Source: an uncultured Gammaproteobacteria bacterium (GTDB lineage Bacteria > Pseudomonadota > Gammaproteobacteria > GCA-2729495). Taken from it: DNA of 5,661 nucleotides. How positions within the stretch are numbered: position 1 is the stretch's first letter; each line of letters starts with the position of its first letter. Below are positions 1 to 5,661 of the stretch, one piece after another. Below the pieces are notes generated by a model. It had not been told where the DNA came from. It did no database searches and saw nothing but the letters and a program-made list of their open reading frames with translations. The DNA lies in the NCBI GenBank assembly GCA_947258805.1, contig CAMYJV010000184.1, forward strand, positions 1-5,661. The letters are read 5' to 3'. The position numbers and the translations under genes are program-made.

Positions 1-471
1 GGCAAGGAGCCCGGCATCATGGAACGTCTCCCACGGCGTCCTGAGACGCCGGTACTGACTGGGGAACTCAGTTTCCGGATAGGGCTCGTGAGCCTGATGT
101 TGGTGCTGGGCTCCTTCGGTCTTTTCGAATGGGCTTCGTCGCATGACGAGGGCGTGGATAAGGCGCGGACGGTTGCGGTCAATATGTTCGTATTTGGTGA
201 ACTCTTTTATCTGTTCAATTGCCGGTCACTGCGTTACTCGATGTTCAGGCTCGGTGTTTTTTCGAATCGCTGGCTTATCCTTGGCGTGGCCGGCATGGCC
301 TTGCTGCAAATCTTGTTTACCTATGCTCCGACAATGAATCAGTTGTTTGGAACGGCGCCGATCGGCGTCGTCGAATGGGCGTTGATTCTGGCAGGGGGGC
401 TGGTTATCTACCTGGTGGTCGGTACGGAGAAGTGGTTGCGTCGTCGTGCCCGCGCTCAGAAAGTCGCGTGA
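1..471 (+). CDS. Cation-transporting P-type ATPase, C-terminal part (5' end outside window)
   Basis: This is the last 156 codons of a P-type ATPase that pumps a cation across the cytoplasmic membrane using ATP. The reading frame is open from base 1 and ends at TGA 469-471. The visible part starts inside the loop after the catalytic core: GKEPGIMERLPRRP matches the 'EPGIM-RPPR' signature that precedes the last membrane helices of the Ca2+/Na+-type (P2) ATPases. It continues with the C-terminal transporter domain: helices around GLVSLMLVLGSFGLFEW, then ARTVAVNMFVFGELFYLFNCRSL (given here as a pattern ARTVAxxMFVxxELFYLFNxRS), a helix over bases 265-321, the TYAPTMNQLFG loop, and a last helix before the basic tail WLRRRARAQ. 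The nucleotide-binding and phosphorylation domains and the ion-binding helices M4 to M6 lie upstream or are only partly visible, so the ion (Ca2+, Na+, K+ or Mg2+) cannot be read here. An ATG at base 19 is internal, not a start. Its place just before a cation antiporter operon suggests a shared role in ion balance. Confidence 0.93.
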   Translation, partial: GKEPGIMERLPRRPETPVLTGELSFRIGLVSLMLVLGSFGLFEWASSHDEGVDKARTVAVNMFVFGELFYLFNCRSLRYSMFRLGVFSNRWLILGVAGMALLQILFTYAPTMNQLFGTAPIGVVEWALILAGGLVIYLVVGTEKWLRRRARAQKVA

Positions 472-569: not shown

Positions 570-1064
570 ATGAGCGATTTGCAAGCGCGTGTCATTTGGT
601 CAACCCTCGCATCACGAGGGCTGCTGTTCTCGTCCATCTGGTGGATTCTCACCGATGGGACAGCAACCTCTTGGTCGATCGGCATCCCGGCAGTATTGTT
701 GGCACTGATTGCCAGTGTCGCATTGCTTGCGCCTGTGCAATTCAACTGGCTCGAGTTTGCCCGGTTCGTACCATTTTTCCTCGTGCGCTCTCTGCTGGGG
801 GGCGTGGACGTCGCCTGGCGCGCATTTCATCCCGGCCTGCCGATCGCTCCGGAGTTTGTTGAGTATCCGCTGCGGCTGCCGCCGGGTCCGGCGCGGGTAT
901 TCATGGTCAACGTGGTCAGTCTGCTACCCGGTACAATGACCATTGAAATCGGTCAGAATCGCCTGAGGGTACATGTGCTTGATGGTCGCAAAGACATCTT
1001 TCCAGAATTCGAAGCCGTGGAACAAGGTGTAGCCCGGATGTTCCGTATATCCTTGGCTACCTGA
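570..1064 (+). CDS. mnhE: Na+/H+ antiporter subunit E (MnhE/MrpE)
   Basis: A 164-residue protein of usual MnhE length. It is an integral membrane subunit of the Mrp/Mnh complex, which exchanges cytoplasmic Na+ (or another monovalent cation) for external H+. Hydrophobic helices lie at about residues 16-28 and 37-55, with a third near 65-78. They are followed by the family's WRAFHPGLPIAPEFVEYPL stretch (residues 83-101, the loop after the helices) and the diagnostic motif VNVVSLLPGTMTIEIG (113-128) with RLRVHVLDG (131-139), the small cytoplasmic domain. The frame is open well upstream, but the earlier part overlaps the ATPase and is not MnhE-like. ATG 570 is chosen. GTG 567 would sit closer to the AAGGA at 552-556 and is a real alternative. 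MnhE comes first here, whereas classical mrp operons begin with mrpA. It ends nine bases before the universal stress gene, so the two are almost certainly co-transcribed. Confidence 0.95.
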   Translation: MSDLQARVIWSTLASRGLLFSSIWWILTDGTATSWSIGIPAVLLALIASVALLAPVQFNWLEFARFVPFFLVRSLLGGVDVAWRAFHPGLPIAPEFVEYPLRLPPGPARVFMVNVVSLLPGTMTIEIGQNRLRVHVLDGRKDIFPEFEAVEQGVARMFRISLAT

Positions 1065-1073: not shown

Positions 1074-2054
1074 ATGAAAAGATTCCAAGCTATTCTTTGT
1101 GTGATTGAACCTGGAGATAAATCCAAGGATGCCTTGGAGCGTGCCGTCACCCTGGCACAGAATAACCAGGCCAGCCTGAAAGCGGTGGTTGTCGCTGAGG
1201 TCGTAACGGCCGGTATCGGGATGCCGGAGGGCGGTCCGATCTCTGCTGATCTGCAGGAAGCGTTGGTGCGTGCGCGTGCGCAGGAGTTGGAGAGCCTGAT
1301 CGATCCTTATCGTAAACGGATCGATATCGAGACCAAGGTTCTGGTTGGGGTGCCGTTCCTGGAGGTTATCCGCGAGGTGCTGCGCAGTGGTCACGACCTT
1401 GTGATCAAGACGCCTGAAAACCCGGACTGGCTCGAGCGATTGTTCGGAAGTAATGACATGCATCTTTTGCGCAAGTGTCCGTGTCCGATCTGGTTGGTCA
1501 AACACCAAGCACCCAAATCATATCGGCGTATTCTTGCGGCCGTCGATGCAGATGAGGATCATCCCAAAGACGAATTGAAAACCCGGCATGCGCTCAACCA
1601 GCAGATCCTGCAAATGGCCAGTTCCCTGGCGCTATCCGACTTTGCCGAGTTGCACGTCGTTCATGCCTGGCATGCGGTTGGCGAGAGTGCCATGCATGGC
1701 GCGTTTCTACATGCCTCAGCGAAGGAGATTGTCGCCTATGTCGAACAAACCAGGTTGAAGCACGAGGCCAGCCTGCAGAACATCGTTCGTGAGATGATCG
1801 GTTACGCTGGAACTGATGCGGTCGATTTCCTCAAACCCCAGAGCCAACTGTTGAAAGGGTCGGCACGCAAAGAGATTCCAGCGTTAGCAAAACGGATTGA
1901 CGCTGACCTCGTCGTCATGGGGACCGTGGGACGCACTGGCGTTCCCGGATTCTTTATGGGCAATACCGCAGAGTCGATTCTGGAGCAGATCGATTGCTCC
2001 GTTCTTGCGGTCAAGCCTCCTGGCTTCGTGACCCCGGTAACCTTGCTGAAGTGA
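1074..2054 (+). CDS. Tandem-domain universal stress protein, UspE-like
   Basis: A 326-residue soluble cytoplasmic protein with two universal stress (UspA) domains, close to the usual size of UspE (about 315 residues). Domain 1 spans about residues 1-143 and ends in HLLRKCPCPIWLVK (130-143), nearly the same as the matching segment of E. coli UspE. Domain 2 spans about 150-315. It opens with RRILAAVDAD, with Asp158 at the usual ATP-contact position, and ends with GTVGRTGVPGFFMGNTAE (283-300). This fits the ATP-binding pattern G-x2-G-x9-G (Gly283, Gly286, Gly296), followed by Asn297-Thr298. Domain 1 has Glu12 where the Asp is expected and no glycine motif, so only the second domain is likely to bind nucleotide. 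Known USP proteins support survival under stress, and some bind transporters. Here the gene sits between mnhE and mnhF, and its stop overlaps the mnhF start, which implies co-regulation with the antiporter. A regulatory role on the complex is an inference. Confidence 0.94.
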   Translation: MKRFQAILCVIEPGDKSKDALERAVTLAQNNQASLKAVVVAEVVTAGIGMPEGGPISADLQEALVRARAQELESLIDPYRKRIDIETKVLVGVPFLEVIREVLRSGHDLVIKTPENPDWLERLFGSNDMHLLRKCPCPIWLVKHQAPKSYRRILAAVDADEDHPKDELKTRHALNQQILQMASSLALSDFAELHVVHAWHAVGESAMHGAFLHASAKEIVAYVEQTRLKHEASLQNIVREMIGYAGTDAVDFLKPQSQLLKGSARKEIPALAKRIDADLVVMGTVGRTGVPGFFMGNTAESILEQIDCSVLAVKPPGFVTPVTLLK

Positions 2055-2341
2055 CGCTTGTGCACACCATAAATCTCGCAGTGGCTCTGTTTTTGTTGCT
2101 GAACCTGGGTGCCGGGATGTGGCGCGTGATACGTGGACCGACGGCCGCGGATCGCATGCTCGCAGGACAGTTGTTCGGCACCACAGCGGTGGCCATGCTC
2201 TTGCTGCTGGCGGAGTCAACCGCGACTGCGGTCTTGCGCGACGTGGCATTGCTGTTTGCGCTGTTGGCCGCGGTGACAGCGGTGACGTTTGTCCGGCGGG
2301 CCTGGCCGGACCGGGAGCCGGACCATCGTCGTGTTGATTGA
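2051..2341 (+). CDS. mnhF: Na+/H+ antiporter subunit F (MnhF/MrpF)
   Basis: A small membrane subunit of the Mrp complex, 96 residues from GTG 2051, with three helices (about residues 6-26, 37-54 and 62-81). The family motif RVIRGPTAADRMLA (25-38) is clear: GPT-x2-DR with its conserved Asp34, followed by RDVALLFALLAAVTAVTF (63-80). MnhF belongs to the small-subunit part of the complex thought to line the cation path. The open frame starts earlier, inside the stress gene, but that extension is not family-like. GTG 2051 is chosen because it makes a GTGA overlap with the stress gene stop (2052-2054), typical of coupled translation. GTG 2060 would give 93 residues and is almost as likely. The ribosome binding site is poor at either start, which also points to coupling. 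Confidence 0.93.
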   Translation: MTLVHTINLAVALFLLLNLGAGMWRVIRGPTAADRMLAGQLFGTTAVAMLLLLAESTATAVLRDVALLFALLAAVTAVTFVRRAWPDREPDHRRVD

Positions 2342-2627
2342 TGTTCTCTCCGCCTTATTGATATTGGGGGGGGCTGCCTTTTTTCTGGCCGGAACCCTGG
2401 GGCTACTGCGCTTTCCTGACGTTTACACGCGCCTGCACGCCTTGACCAAAGCCGACAACGTCGGCCTCGGACTGGTGGTGGGGGGCCTCGGGTTGCAGGC
2501 GGACACATGGTCGGTGGCGGGCAAGCTGTTTCTGATCTGGCTGCTGGTGCTGTTCGCCGGGGCCAGTGTTTCTTATCTGGTCGCCAGGGGCGCATGGCTC
2601 CGGGGGGTCAAGCCGTGGATTCGCTGA
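2331..2627 (+). CDS. mnhG: Na+/H+ antiporter subunit G (MnhG/MrpG)
   Basis: A 98-residue membrane subunit of the antiporter with three helices (about residues 4-24, 43-56 and 63-84). The diagnostic MnhG motif is GLLRFPDVYTRLHALTKADN (24-43), in the loop after helix 1. GTG 2331 is chosen because it gives the usual family N-terminus just before helix 1 and overlaps mnhF by 11 bases, with GGGAGCCGGA at 2313-2322 as a plausible ribosome binding site. TTG 2334 is an alternative. A longer reading from TTG 2289 adds a non-hydrophobic stretch unlike the family. The gene has an 8-base G run at 2366-2373 (codons 12-15) and 6-base G runs at 2480-2485 and 2602-2607. The frame is intact through all of them. 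Confidence 0.94.
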   Translation: MLIDVLSALLILGGAAFFLAGTLGLLRFPDVYTRLHALTKADNVGLGLVVGGLGLQADTWSVAGKLFLIWLLVLFAGASVSYLVARGAWLRGVKPWIR

Positions 2628-2947
2628 TTCTGTTGGCGTGGGCCTTCGATAGCTTCTTGGTATTGGGATTGTTTTGGTTGGCCTGGCAGGCATTGGCCTG
2701 CGCGGATCTGTTCAGGGCCATCGTGTTGTTCGTTGCCTTTGGCCTGCTGATGGCGCTGGTCTGGACGCGACTGCATGCGCCTGACATCGCTTTGGCGGAA
2801 GCCGCCATCGGTGCAGGACTCACAGGTGCCTTGCTGTTGACGGCGCTGGCGCGCCTCGAAGCTGCCGACCGGGATCGTCGAAAGCAAGAACAATACAACG
2901 AGGAAGAAGACCGCCAATCAATGCAGGCTCCAAGGACCGACGCATGA
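2615..2947 (+). CDS. MbhD-like DUF4040 antiporter subunit (equivalent to part of the MrpA C-terminus)
   Basis: A 110-residue membrane protein with three helices (about residues 4-25, 33-50 and 58-78). LHAPDIALAEAAIGAGLTGA (53-72) is the signature of the MbhD/DUF4040 domain, which is a separate subunit in archaeal membrane-bound hydrogenases and is fused to the C-terminus of MrpA in classical Mrp systems. Glu62 lies where this family has its conserved acidic residue. After helix 3 comes a strongly charged soluble tail (about 79-110, rich in Arg, Asp, Glu and Gln), longer than I would expect for the domain. GTG 2615 is preferred: it starts right before helix 1, has a G-rich site at 2602-2607, and overlaps mnhG by 13 bases. 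ATG 2594 is in frame and would add seven residues (MAPGGQA), so it cannot be excluded. The stop overlaps the next start as ATGA. Confidence 0.88.
   Translation: MDSLILLAWAFDSFLVLGLFWLAWQALACADLFRAIVLFVAFGLLMALVWTRLHAPDIALAEAAIGAGLTGALLLTALARLEAADRDRRKQEQYNEEEDRQSMQAPRTDA
2932..2936 (+). promoter_or_regulatory. Shine-Dalgarno site deciding the start of the PsiE-like gene
   Basis: AAGGA lies seven bases before ATG 2944, which itself overlaps the upstream stop as ATGA. It favours ATG 2944. A second purine-rich stretch, GAGGAAGGA at 2946-2954, could serve the in-frame ATG codons at 2959, 2962 and 2965, so two start sites may be used. Confidence 0.55.
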
Positions 2948-3408
2948 GGAAGGAATCAATGATGATGGGCTATCTGAAGAAATTTGAGCGTGCCCTTGTC
3001 GGGGTATTGATCCTGATGCTGGCCCTTGTGGTGCTGCTGTCAGTGGTGGAATTGGGCCGCGTGTTGCTCAGAGACATGCTCACGCCCCCGCGATTCGTTC
3101 TTGAGATCGGGCAGCTCCTGGAGATATTTGGTCTGTTCCTCCTGGTGCTGATCGGAATCGAGTTGCTCGAAACGGTAAAAAAATACTTCACGGACGGCTG
3201 TGTGGACGTTGACGTGATCCTCTCCGTCGCATTGATCGCGCTTGCGCGAAAGATCATCACCATGGATCCAAAGGAATACGATCCCCTTACCCTGATCGGA
3301 ATGGCGGCCATCATCCTGTCGTTGGTGGTGGGGTATTGGATCGTGAAGAAAAGCAGGCCGAGCCGAGTCGCACATGACGAGCAACAAGACTGCAAGACCG
3401 AAAACTGA
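2944..3408 (+). CDS. PsiE-family (phosphate-starvation-inducible-like) membrane protein
   Basis: A 154-residue inner-membrane protein with the four-helix layout of the PsiE family: about residues 17-42, 55-76, 88-105 and 115-134. The family resemblance is clearest in LLEIFGLFLLVLIGIELLET (58-77) followed by VDVDVILSVALIALARKII (87-105) and MDPKEYDPLTLIG (107-119). A basic and charged tail (KKSRPSRVAHDEQQ) ends the protein. PsiE is named from E. coli phosphate starvation, but its biochemical role is unknown, so no function is claimed. It is not a usual Mrp subunit, yet it is embedded here: it overlaps the MbhD-like gene by four bases and the MbhE-MnhB gene by 35, so it is translated with them. 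ATG 2944 is chosen, with 2959/2962 as alternatives. Sampled rows inside it are 50-55% GC (bases 3181-3300), against 73% in a sampled mnhC row (4201-4260), which could reflect a separate origin. Confidence 0.88.
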   Translation: MRKESMMMGYLKKFERALVGVLILMLALVVLLSVVELGRVLLRDMLTPPRFVLEIGQLLEIFGLFLLVLIGIELLETVKKYFTDGCVDVDVILSVALIALARKIITMDPKEYDPLTLIGMAAIILSLVVGYWIVKKSRPSRVAHDEQQDCKTEN

Positions 3409-4081
3409 TGAAAATGCGCGGGTTGAGACGGTGATCCGCCTGCTGAGTGCGCTATTGGTCTCGGCTGTTGCCGCGGGGTTGGCCTTTGCCGTTTCTTCGT
3501 TGCCGACTGTCGCCACGGGTCTGCATGATGCCGTTGATGCGCGGCTGGCGCTGAGCGGCGTCAGCCACCCGGTGACCGCAGTACTGCTCAACTTCCGCGG
3601 TTATGACACACTGCTTGAGATGGCCGTATTGCTGCTGGTACTGGTGGGTGTCTGGTCATTGAACGTGGCACCATCGGAGCGTCAAACCGCGACGGCTGCT
3701 GTTTTGCATTTCCTCGTCCGATTCCTGGTGCCGGTGATGATACTGATAGCCGCTTACCTGCTTTGGGTCGGCGCTCATGCACCAGGTGGCGCCTTTCAGG
3801 CCGGGGCGGTGCTGGGAGCAGCCGGCGTCTTGTTGCTGTTATCGGGCTGGCGCCTGCCCGAGTTGCTGGCGGGCTGGCCGCTGCGCCTGACGTTGGTTGC
3901 GGGCGTTGGGGTGTTCGCCGCAGTGGCGGCCGGCGTCATGTGGAGTGGGGCCTCGCTTCTGGAGTATCCACCGCAATGGGCTGGCGAGCTGATCCTGCTT
4001 ATCGAGGCGACAGCCACCCTGTCGATCGGCGCCGCCTTGGCGGCCCTGTTTCTGGGTGGGCGGCCGGAAGATAGTCCGTGA
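3374..4081 (+). CDS. mnhB: MbhE-MnhB fusion: Na+/H+ antiporter subunit B with N-terminal MbhE-like domain
   Basis: A 235-residue membrane protein made of two parts. The N-terminal third resembles MbhE: a helix at about 22-42, an extracytoplasmic stretch, then VTAVLLNFRGYDTLLEMAVL (67-86), where NFRGYDTLxE is the MbhE hallmark, leading into a helix to about 95. The rest is the MnhB domain: VRFLVPVMILIAAYLLWVGA (115-134), HAPGGAFQAGAVLGAAGVLL (135-154), a helix at about 171-190, and the last helix with LIEATATLSIGAALAALF (209-226). In archaeal hydrogenases these parts are separate MbhE and MbhF proteins, while in classical Mrp the first lies at the end of MrpA and the second is MrpB. ATG 3374 overlaps the PsiE-like gene by 35 bases and has no strong ribosome binding site. 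A later GTG in the frame (about 3431) would remove only the polar N-terminus. The stop overlaps mnhC as GTGA. Confidence 0.92.
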   Translation: MTSNKTARPKTDENARVETVIRLLSALLVSAVAAGLAFAVSSLPTVATGLHDAVDARLALSGVSHPVTAVLLNFRGYDTLLEMAVLLLVLVGVWSLNVAPSERQTATAAVLHFLVRFLVPVMILIAAYLLWVGAHAPGGAFQAGAVLGAAGVLLLLSGWRLPELLAGWPLRLTLVAGVGVFAAVAAGVMWSGASLLEYPPQWAGELILLIEATATLSIGAALAALFLGGRPEDSP

Positions 4082-4386
4082 ACCCCGCGTTTCTGTATGC
4101 ACTGGCCGGGGTGGGGCTCTTTTCCCTGGGTCTGTATGCGTTGATCGTTCATGCCCACCTGTTGCGCAAGATCCTGGCGCTGAACGTCATGGGCAGCGGC
4201 GTATTTCTGGTGCTCGGCGGACTGGCGGGGCGCACCCCGCAGGGGCCGCCAGATCCGGTGCCGCACGCCATGGTAATCACCGGTATCGTGGTGGCGGTAG
4301 CGGCCACCGCCCTGGCTTTGGCGTTGATGTTGCGCGTCCATGCTGCCACCGGTCGCCCAGTGCTTCCCGACGGGCAGGGAAGCTAG
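4078..4386 (+). CDS. mnhC: Na+/H+ antiporter subunit C (MnhC/MrpC, NuoK-like)
   Basis: A 102-residue, three-helix membrane subunit homologous to NuoK of respiratory complex I. Helices lie at about residues 3-24, 32-50 and 64-86. The motif LLRKILALNVMGSGVFLVLG (28-47) marks helix 2, and DPVPHAMVITGIVVAVAATA (59-78) is the standard MrpC loop and helix 3 (family form DPxPQALVLTAIVI). Here His63 replaces the common Gln. In Mrp and complex I this subunit connects the proton-pumping D-type subunit to the small-subunit module. The GTG start at 4078 overlaps the MnhB stop as GTGA, with CGGAAG at 4065-4070 as its ribosome binding site. The C-terminal 15 residues are polar and rich in Gly and Pro. The TAG stop is four bases before the mnhD start. 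Confidence 0.95.
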   Translation: MNPAFLYALAGVGLFSLGLYALIVHAHLLRKILALNVMGSGVFLVLGGLAGRTPQGPPDPVPHAMVITGIVVAVAATALALALMLRVHAATGRPVLPDGQGS

Positions 4387-4390
4387 CTCT

Positions 4391-5661
4391 GTGGAGCAGG
4401 TATCCAACGCCGCCTCCAGCTGGAGCGTCGCGCTCATCCTACTGCCGCTAGCGGGGGCGGTGCTGGCATTTTTGTTCCGGCGTGCCGTCACAAAAATCAG
4501 TATCGGCGCCGCCGTAGCGACGAGCATCGCCGCAGCCGGTCTGACCCGGTCGGTAATCATGGAGGGCACGCTGAATCACACCGTGGGCGGCTGGGGCGCA
4601 CCGCTGGGCATTGATCTGCGAGCAGACGGCCTGAGTGTGCTGATGCTGCTCATGACCGCCGCAGTTGGTCTGGCGATCAGCTTCTATGCGCCGGCCTATT
4701 TCCGCGACGAGCCGCGCAAGGCAGAACGATTCTGGCCACTTTGGCTGTTCCTTTGGACAGGACTGAATGCGCTGTTTCTGTCTTCTGATATCTTCAATCT
4801 CTACGTCACCCTGGAGCTGCTCGGCCTGGCGGCAGTGGCGCTCACTGCACTATCCGGTCGGGCGGACGCCTTGACCGGCGCCATGCGTTATCTGCTGGCT
4901 ACGCTGCTGGGGTCGCTCCTGTACCTTCTTGGTGTTGCGCTGCTCTATCATGGCGTTGGCAGTGTGGACATCGCGATCATTGCGGAGCGGGTCGATGCCT
5001 CTCCAGTGGTTTGGGCCGCTCTCGGGCTGATGGGTACCGGCCTGTTGCTCAAGACGGCACTTTTCCCATTGCATTTCTGGTTGCCGCCAGCCCATGCCAG
5101 CGCACCGGCGCCCGTGAGCGCGCTTTTGTCGGCCCTGGTGGTGAAGGCCTCTTTCTATATTCTGCTGCGTTTGTGGCTCGAAATATTCGGCCCTCTGGTT
5201 GGCGATGGTGTTGGAGAACTTCTCGGCCTGCTCGGCGCTGCAGCCGTGCTCTGGGGCTCCTTGCAGGCCTTGCGCCAGACCCGGCTGAAGCTGCTCATCG
5301 CGTATTCCACCGTAGCGCAGCTCGGTTACATGTTCCTGGCGTTTCCACTTGCTCCGGCCTCTGGTTTTTCGGCTTGGAGCGCGGCGGCATACCTGGCCCT
5401 GTCTCACGCTTTTGCAAAGGCCGCCATGTTTCTGGCGGCGGGCAATCTGCTGCGCTTTGGCGGGCATGACCGCATTGCCGATCTGGATCGCGTGGTGCAG
5501 CGCCTGCCGCTCACCGCGGGTGCCTTTGCGCTCGCAGGTGTCAGCAGCATGGGGTTGCCTCCGAGCGGGGCCTTTGTCGGCAAATGGCTGTTGCTTGAGG
5601 CGGCCCTGGCCCAGGGGCGGTGGGACCTGGTTGCGGTCATGTTTCTTGGTGGCCTGCTGGC
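4391..5661 (+). CDS. mnhD: Na+/H+ antiporter subunit D (MnhD/MrpD), 3' end outside window
   Basis: The first 423 codons of a NuoL/M/N-type antiporter subunit (family length about 490-520), with the frame open to the end of the window. It carries the proton-conducting machinery of the complex. Family residues are in place: Glu142 in YVTLELLGL (helix 5), Lys221 in GLLLKTALFPLHFWLPPAHA (217-236), Lys252 in ALVVKASFY, Lys300 in TRLKLLIAYSTVAQLGYM, His339 and Lys343 in LSHAFAKAAMF, and Lys398 in GAFVGKWLLLEAAL. Glu142 and Lys221 are the pair expected to be essential in this family. GTG 4391 (MEQVSNAASSWS, then helix 1 at about 13-29) is chosen as the first in-frame start after the mnhC stop. Its upstream ribosome binding site is weak, so reinitiation after mnhC is likely. 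Nothing looks broken in the visible part. Confidence 0.95.
   Translation, partial: MEQVSNAASSWSVALILLPLAGAVLAFLFRRAVTKISIGAAVATSIAAAGLTRSVIMEGTLNHTVGGWGAPLGIDLRADGLSVLMLLMTAAVGLAISFYAPAYFRDEPRKAERFWPLWLFLWTGLNALFLSSDIFNLYVTLELLGLAAVALTALSGRADALTGAMRYLLATLLGSLLYLLGVALLYHGVGSVDIAIIAERVDASPVVWAALGLMGTGLLLKTALFPLHFWLPPAHASAPAPVSALLSALVVKASFYILLRLWLEIFGPLVGDGVGELLGLLGAAAVLWGSLQALRQTRLKLLIAYSTVAQLGYMFLAFPLAPASGFSAWSAAAYLALSHAFAKAAMFLAAGNLLRFGGHDRIADLDRVVQRLPLTAGAFALAGVSSMGLPPSGAFVGKWLLLEAALAQGRWDLVAVMFLGGLL

Follow-up and report, generated by a model that had tools for sequence, protein, structure and literature searches.

Why does a gene for a PsiE-family protein lie inside the operon of an Mrp-type antiporter? 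We addressed this question in a 5,661-nucleotide contig from an uncultured Gammaproteobacteria bacterium (GenBank assembly GCA_947258805.1, contig CAMYJV010000184.1; "the window" hereafter means this whole stretch), which by Pfam carries the 3' end of a P-type cation ATPase gene, followed by the operon of an Mrp-type antiporter in the order mnhE, a UspE-like gene, mnhF, mnhG, mbhD, psiE, a fused mbhE-mnhB, mnhC and mnhD. The contig ends within mnhD, leaving the operon incomplete in the window. The window appears to be a whole short contig, as the protein database places its PsiE and MnhB on one of 5661 bases. A first-pass annotation had put psiE between mbhD and the fused gene, and the Pfam searches confirmed both the identities and the order. 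Our preferred reading, held tentatively and at a little under even confidence, is that psiE is a maintained member of this operon, that its product serves the antiporter as an accessory or assembly partner, and that relatives in its PsiE subgroup probably do the same for other cation transporters.

The window PsiE scores 111 bits against the PF06146 profile (curated cut-off 23.9) and 29 bits against the NCBIfam PsiE equivalog model NF002763, short of the cut-off of 138, and on these profile scores it is not the enterobacterial PsiE equivalog. Four membrane helices are typical of the PF06146 family. The hydropathy profile of the window protein has four peaks, and its AlphaFold2 model contains four helices (residues 2-41, 50-79, 84-101 and 109-131; mean predicted local distance difference test score 79.5, with the five models ranging from 64.5 to 79.5), consistent with a predicted four-helix membrane protein; E68, A94, R97, I100 and L122 are conserved in at least 90% of a 100-sequence PsiE alignment. 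At its 3' end the gene runs into its neighbor, with the stop codon at 3406-3408 lying beyond the mnhB ATG at 3374, an overlap of 35 nucleotides if that ATG is used. The earlier claim that psiE overlaps both neighbors thus stands downstream but is doubtful upstream, where ATG 2944 would overlap mbhD by 4 nucleotides (ATGA) and ATG 2959, preceded by GAGGAAGGA, leaves 11 nucleotides after the mbhD stop. The 2959 start appears likelier because of the putative ribosome site in front of it, and the protein-database copy of the window PsiE (P0001), at 149 residues, fits the same start.

We tested 28 PsiE tails for their fit with an MnhB N-terminus in dual coding, using 200 shuffles for each. For the window tail, the positive control, no shuffle was as good (0/200); the tails of P0003, P0004, P0005, P0007 and P0008 also fit, with 0 or 1 of 200 shuffles as good, P0009 nearly fits (3/200), and P0002 gave 9/200. 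These seven tails all share one offset from the stop, the window PsiE ending one residue earlier; the fitting ones are related and do not count as independent tests. The tail of P0006, which its source labels a partial protein, showed no fit, and for the 19 other tails 9 to 184 of 200 shuffles were as good, the best of these being matched and not bettered by P0002. Real DNA shows dual coding in the window and in genome G001. Such an overlap could mean that psiE serves mainly to couple the translation of mbhD and mnhB, with its protein secondary, and the reading of PsiE into mnhB in the window and the same fit in close relatives agree with this. PsiE is nevertheless conserved as a protein (P0002 to P0030 share 66-91% identity with the window PsiE), also in relatives whose tail does not fit the overlap, and we consider this explanation very improbable. 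The JGI label for P0002 and others is "DUF373 family", though PF06146 is present.

The first-pass annotation had suggested searching for PsiE beside DUF4040 and MnhB genes elsewhere, and the linkage did recur in other sequences, across lineages within Gammaproteobacteria. Comparing the best 120 PsiE and the best 120 MnhB relatives, window excluded, for shared contigs (identical size of at least 2 kb and shared source), we found five metagenome contigs common to both lists (16835, 44608, 5671, 10001 and 3708 bases), a result that shows linkage on one contig and not gene order; in 600 controls with sizes displaced up or down by 1 to 300 bases, the mean number of matches was 0.15 and the maximum 2. 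A sixth match, of 950 bases, had differing sources and was left out of the count, and the PsiE on the 5671-base contig is short (125 residues) and may be cut or end early. Two MnhB relatives closer to the window MnhB than the five, on contigs of 31,303 and 10,555 bases, had no partner in the best-120 PsiE list. Between the window and the five contigs, PsiE diverges by 9-32% and MnhB by 10-39%, and for the seven PsiE-MnhB pairs of the window, of G359 and of these contigs, distances among the PsiE proteins correlate with those among the MnhB proteins (Mantel r 0.70, exact p 0.0006).

How unusual the position is emerges from a set of 63 Mrp loci, made up of the window, G359 and 61 more, which are best MnhB matches rather than a random draw and represent some of the matches listed. 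Judged by alignments, mbhD and mnhB lie no more than 173 nucleotides apart in 61 of the 63; the distance is 430 nucleotides in the window and 397 in G359, and PsiE fills both gaps. The placement is therefore rare yet recurrent, with two occurrences in this set. In 16 of the best 120 MnhB relatives (the window's own included), MbhD and MbhE-MnhB form one fused protein, which means that PsiE occupies a joint that in other cases lies within a single polypeptide and bears out the proposal that it splits genes for adjacent domains. The G359 cluster also carries a KefC-type exchanger. The same operon type occurs in G476 (L070, 6782-16058), with a KefC-type exchanger gene upstream and two further antiporter-like subunit genes after mnhD.

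The two filled slots do not trace to a single recent insertion common to the window and G359, a scenario that the PsiE tree rejects: it excludes the two as sisters (p 8e-5, the pair having been tested after the first tree was seen), so already separated PsiE lineages occupy the same slot. The Mrp tree, built by a quick method and without bootstrap, also places the two apart, a joint clade not being rejected (p 0.26). Either two captures into the same slot or a linkage of old date that was lost many times would agree with this.

By another account psiE is a passenger without functional meaning, brought in by chance insertion or operon shuffling, and both the two filled slots among 63 and the abundance of PsiE in the class speak for it. 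Among 274 gammaproteobacterial genomes PsiE was present in 109, MbhD in at least 117 (a count that rests on the matches listed) and both in at least 55, with 2 same-strand PsiE-MbhD pairs within 3 kb (G137 and G208) against 0.096 expected (P about 0.004, the 3 kb limit having been set after the pairs were seen). In the order of G001 (210 genomes), among the matches listed, G359 has PsiE in the slot, and G450 and G452 have it next to an Mrp operon that runs on the other strand (positions were inspected by eye, with a script for some); these three PsiE/MnhB pairs within 5 kb are near chance on a rough estimate of about 1.2 expected, again in favor of a passenger. Against it, the linkage has lasted through the divergence of both proteins given above, the tail overlap fits in relatives, and separate PsiE lineages stand in the same slot. 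We regard a passenger as improbable. In G450 (L215), a SulP-family permease gene and then PsiE lie divergent from the Mrp operon.

The first-pass annotation had gone further, suggesting that some PsiE-family proteins are accessories of cation antiporters. This finds support in one subgroup, most members of which adjoin or share a frame with cation transporters, and not in the family at large, since 93 of 100 PsiE loci outside the subgroup have no probed cation transporter within 3 kb. The subgroup comprises seven loci including the window, with at least 51% identity to the window PsiE, the next relative having 37%. A probed cation transporter lies within 3 kb at 5 of the 7, compared with 7/100 for PsiE elsewhere (p 1.4e-4); once the window, G359, G450 and G452 are set aside, the counts are 3/5 versus 5/98 (p 0.003), and without G208 and G137 as well, which were fetched because of Mrp, 2/4 versus 4/97 (p 0.017). 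In the window and G359, PsiE occupies the Mrp slot; in G208, it overlaps a Na/Ca exchanger gene that is followed by mrpA-, mnhC- and mnhD-type genes; in G175, it stands between a Na/Ca exchanger and MarC; in G003 (L074:767-2218), TerC and PsiE domains share one open frame of 484 amino acids; and in G001, an mnhB stub follows it. The transporter linkage thus belongs to one PsiE subgroup. These contexts cover all but about 45 of the 143 PsiE matches in the 274 genomes, and a minority of those in the order of G001.

PsiE as a general antiporter neighbor was considered and rejected: the commonest neighbor family is SAICAR synthetase (6, among 75 downstream and 72 upstream neighbors), and no transporter family occurs more than twice among the 25 families listed of 73 and 82 (Pfam), the neighbors having been picked by simple open-reading-frame rules, so that some are not genes. 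Outside the subgroup, PsiE directly precedes a P-type cation ATPase gene in G186 (L227 1033-4193) and G140 (L140). Close PsiE relatives were absent from viral contigs and plasmids; G002 was the sole one found in a 398-genome phylum sample, none further came from the orders of G175, G208 and G067, and the order of G003 (2 genomes) gave no MnhB. A broader possibility is that members of the subgroup act as a small, portable partner of cation transporters whose folds are unrelated: Mrp complexes, Na/Ca exchangers and TerC, and perhaps also KefB and P-type ATPases. Such a role would resemble that of the small auxiliary subunits found with ion pumps in eukaryotes, with the window representing a capture at the MbhD/MbhE joint, and, if true, would assign these PsiE proteins a function at the molecular level; we think it unlikely in this general form.

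The G001 locus preserves what may be a trace of the same arrangement. Near 3101-3133 of L073, a stub reading MSNRTAKMRTDE overlaps the PsiE end and then diverges, and the MnhB protein P0124 begins MSNKTAKLKTDE. A similar beginning is present in all but one (P0127) of twelve MnhB starts compared, also where the listed PsiE tails are shorter, and the stub is for this reason most likely derived from mnhB, in which case the G001 PsiE once preceded mnhB. The locus is an apparent decay product of an Mrp operon, with only the first mnhB codons left; it comes from a low-coverage metagenome assembly (2.5-fold) in which misassembly is possible.

Several observations weigh against our preferred reading. 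The slot lacks PsiE in 61 of the 63 loci that we compared. Some of the transporter probes derive from the subgroup, which favors it and inflates its contrast with other PsiE loci to some degree, and one subgroup member, G002, has no probe match within 3 kb of PsiE, four nearby open reading frames not being transporters by Pfam. The TerC-PsiE fusion has no second example, although the search for long fusions returned none at all, its own query included, and is a weak negative. Because the subgroup neighbors differ, any contact would not be specific to Mrp. On the 4.25-kb G001 contig no Mrp gene was found beyond the mnhB stub, and the G001 genome gave a single weak MnhB match (E 1.6e-5); PsiE there is still open after the loss of its mnhB neighbor, which counts against a strict need for Mrp.

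This persistence of PsiE without Mrp in G001 also favors the strongest alternative, in which PsiE is an independent membrane stress protein, co-regulated with ion-homeostasis genes, that rides in the operon as the universal stress protein (Usp) gene does and makes no contact with the antiporter. The Usp gene lies within the same operon, and a Usp match is present in at least 14 of 62 related loci, a lower bound with most flanks at 1.5 kb. The accessible text of PMC8290217 describes heat-resistance islands in which a PsiE-like gene and kefB are neighbors amid genes for chaperones, and that of PMC4415409 places E. coli psiE under PhoB and CRP control. The 35-nucleotide overlap with mnhB, the exact position of psiE, with parts of a single structural domain encoded on either side, and the frame that TerC and PsiE share fit contact better than co-regulation alone, and we judge an independent stress protein possible but doubtful. 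G359 carries two Usp genes in tandem.

Under the preferred reading, psiE would be maintained and co-translated with the antiporter genes, and its product would most likely be an accessory protein or a partner in assembly, one that attaches to the MbhD/MbhE-MnhB part of the complex or helps to build it. We infer physical contact and a modulation of cation/proton exchange in which PsiE would have no part in catalysis. In the solved Mrp complex, as described in the available sections of PMC7419157, MrpC, A-C, F and G form layers with MrpB at the flank, and a lipid-containing cavity lies between MrpA-C and MrpF; a four-helix PsiE made between MbhD and MbhE-MnhB could dock in this region. Relatives of the same subgroup probably do likewise for the Na/Ca exchanger and TerC. 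PsiE does not have the standing of a core Mrp subunit, with its slot filled at two of 63 loci and no PsiE chain in the solved complexes; a search of the PDB with the PsiE profile returned one chance-level match (PsaM, E 0.65) and no PsiE relative by sequence. As for the stoichiometric part proposed in the first-pass annotation, the PDB result and the still open PsiE of G001 leave it no more than a candidate role. A recurring, overlapping place in the operon of a structurally solved antiporter gives a testable lead on PsiE function, and confirmation would add an accessory subunit, specific to certain lineages, to Mrp complexes.

Table 1. Features of the window, with positions on the forward strand and supporting matches.
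Feature	Position	Strand	Support
P-type cation ATPase gene, 3' end	1..471	+	PF00689, E 3.5e-38
mnhE/mrpE	570..1064	+	PF01899, E 2.3e-24 (scanned as 573-1061)
UspE-like universal stress protein gene, within the operon	1074..2054	+	PF00582, E 6.5e-34
mnhF/mrpF, likely GTG start	2060..2341	+	PF04066, E 1.1e-8 (scanned as 1994-2338)
mnhG/mrpG, likely GTG start	2331..2627	+	PF03334, E 1.1e-24 (scanned as 2289-2624)
mbhD (DUF4040), GTG start at 2615, stop 2945-2947	2615..2947	+	PF13244, E 1e-17
Probable ribosome-binding site GAGGAAGGA for PsiE start 2959	2946..2954	+	read from the sequence
psiE-like gene, alternative start 2944	2959..3408	+	PF06146, E 5.1e-32, 111 bits
PsiE/mnhB overlap, 35 nucleotides; PsiE C-terminal tail coded by mnhB 5' end, +1 frame	3374..3408	+	
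Fused mbhE-mnhB (MrpA C-terminal end plus MrpB)	3374..4081	+	PF04039, E 4.2e-12
mnhC/mrpC	4078..4386	+	PF00420, E 2.8e-17
mnhD/mrpD, likely GTG start, leaves the contig	4391..5661	+	PF00361, E 1.5e-56 (scanned as 4340-5659)

By Pfam, the window holds Mrp B, C, D, E, F and G together with C-terminal parts of MrpA, MbhE falling under its own cut-off (PF20501, E 2.5e-5, 24.7 bits against 27). The MbhE-MnhB product matches the 235-residue chain E of the archaeal MBS complex 6u8y (E 2.4e-9), and MbhD, judged by its domain family, is equivalent to part of the MrpA C-terminal domain. The gene for the N-terminal part of MrpA would sit past the contig end, since an antiporter-like gene follows mnhD in G359 and G476. 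The Glu of MbhD that aligns with E69 of MBH MbhD (chain 6cfw_D) is kept; in the text seen of PMC7419157, E69 is the counterpart of MrpA E706, an essential acidic residue. Also kept, in the alignment to the MBS chain, are the Asp and Glu of GYDTLLE in MbhE, which by their spacing rather than by alignment would correspond to D792/E796 of MrpA as given in the same text (PMC7419157). With the MbhD Glu and the MbhE Asp/Glu pair present, the antiporter core looks intact. The mnhG product exceeds the TIGR01300 cut-off, and the product of 1074..2054 reaches 176.8 bits against the UspE model, below the cut-off of 227. In-frame TGA codons seen in MbhE-MnhB of 11 matches proved to be natural stops touched by the alignment ends. 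No hydrogenase or sulfur-reductase gene was found in the window by Pfam, a PHROGs search returned one match, to a family of unknown function, and PADLOC returned none.

Placed beside known systems, the window resembles Mrp/Mnh (CPA3) operons in its subunits E, F, G, MbhD, MbhE-MnhB, C and D, in that order, and in its acidic residues, but adds the PsiE and Usp genes and has the C-terminal parts of MrpA split from the NuoL-like part. It shares with the archaeal MBH and MBS complexes (6cfw, 6u8y) a separate MbhD and, as in MBS, a 235-residue MbhE-MnhB chain; these complexes differ in having, by sequence, no PsiE-like chain in the PDB, and the window in having no hydrogenase or sulfur-reductase gene found. 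In the open literature, with most subscription journals outside coverage, there was no report of a PsiE-Mrp arrangement and no biochemical activity or molecular role of PsiE on record. E. coli PsiE (phosphate-starvation-inducible E) belongs to the same family, PF06146, whereas the window PsiE stays far under the equivalog cut-off. The nearest parallel is the tLST, or locus of heat resistance, in which a PsiE-like gene, orf14, directly follows the K+/H+ antiporter gene kefB in the accessible part of PMC8290217, and whose KefB and Orf14 are enriched in inclusion bodies according to the part seen of PMC7010813. KefB differs in being a single-protein antiporter, orf14 is likened to the window PsiE by description alone, and a plasmid search with the window PsiE gave no match; should the partnership with the antiporter be confirmed, the PsiE-like gene beside kefB in these heat-resistance islands would gain a candidate role.

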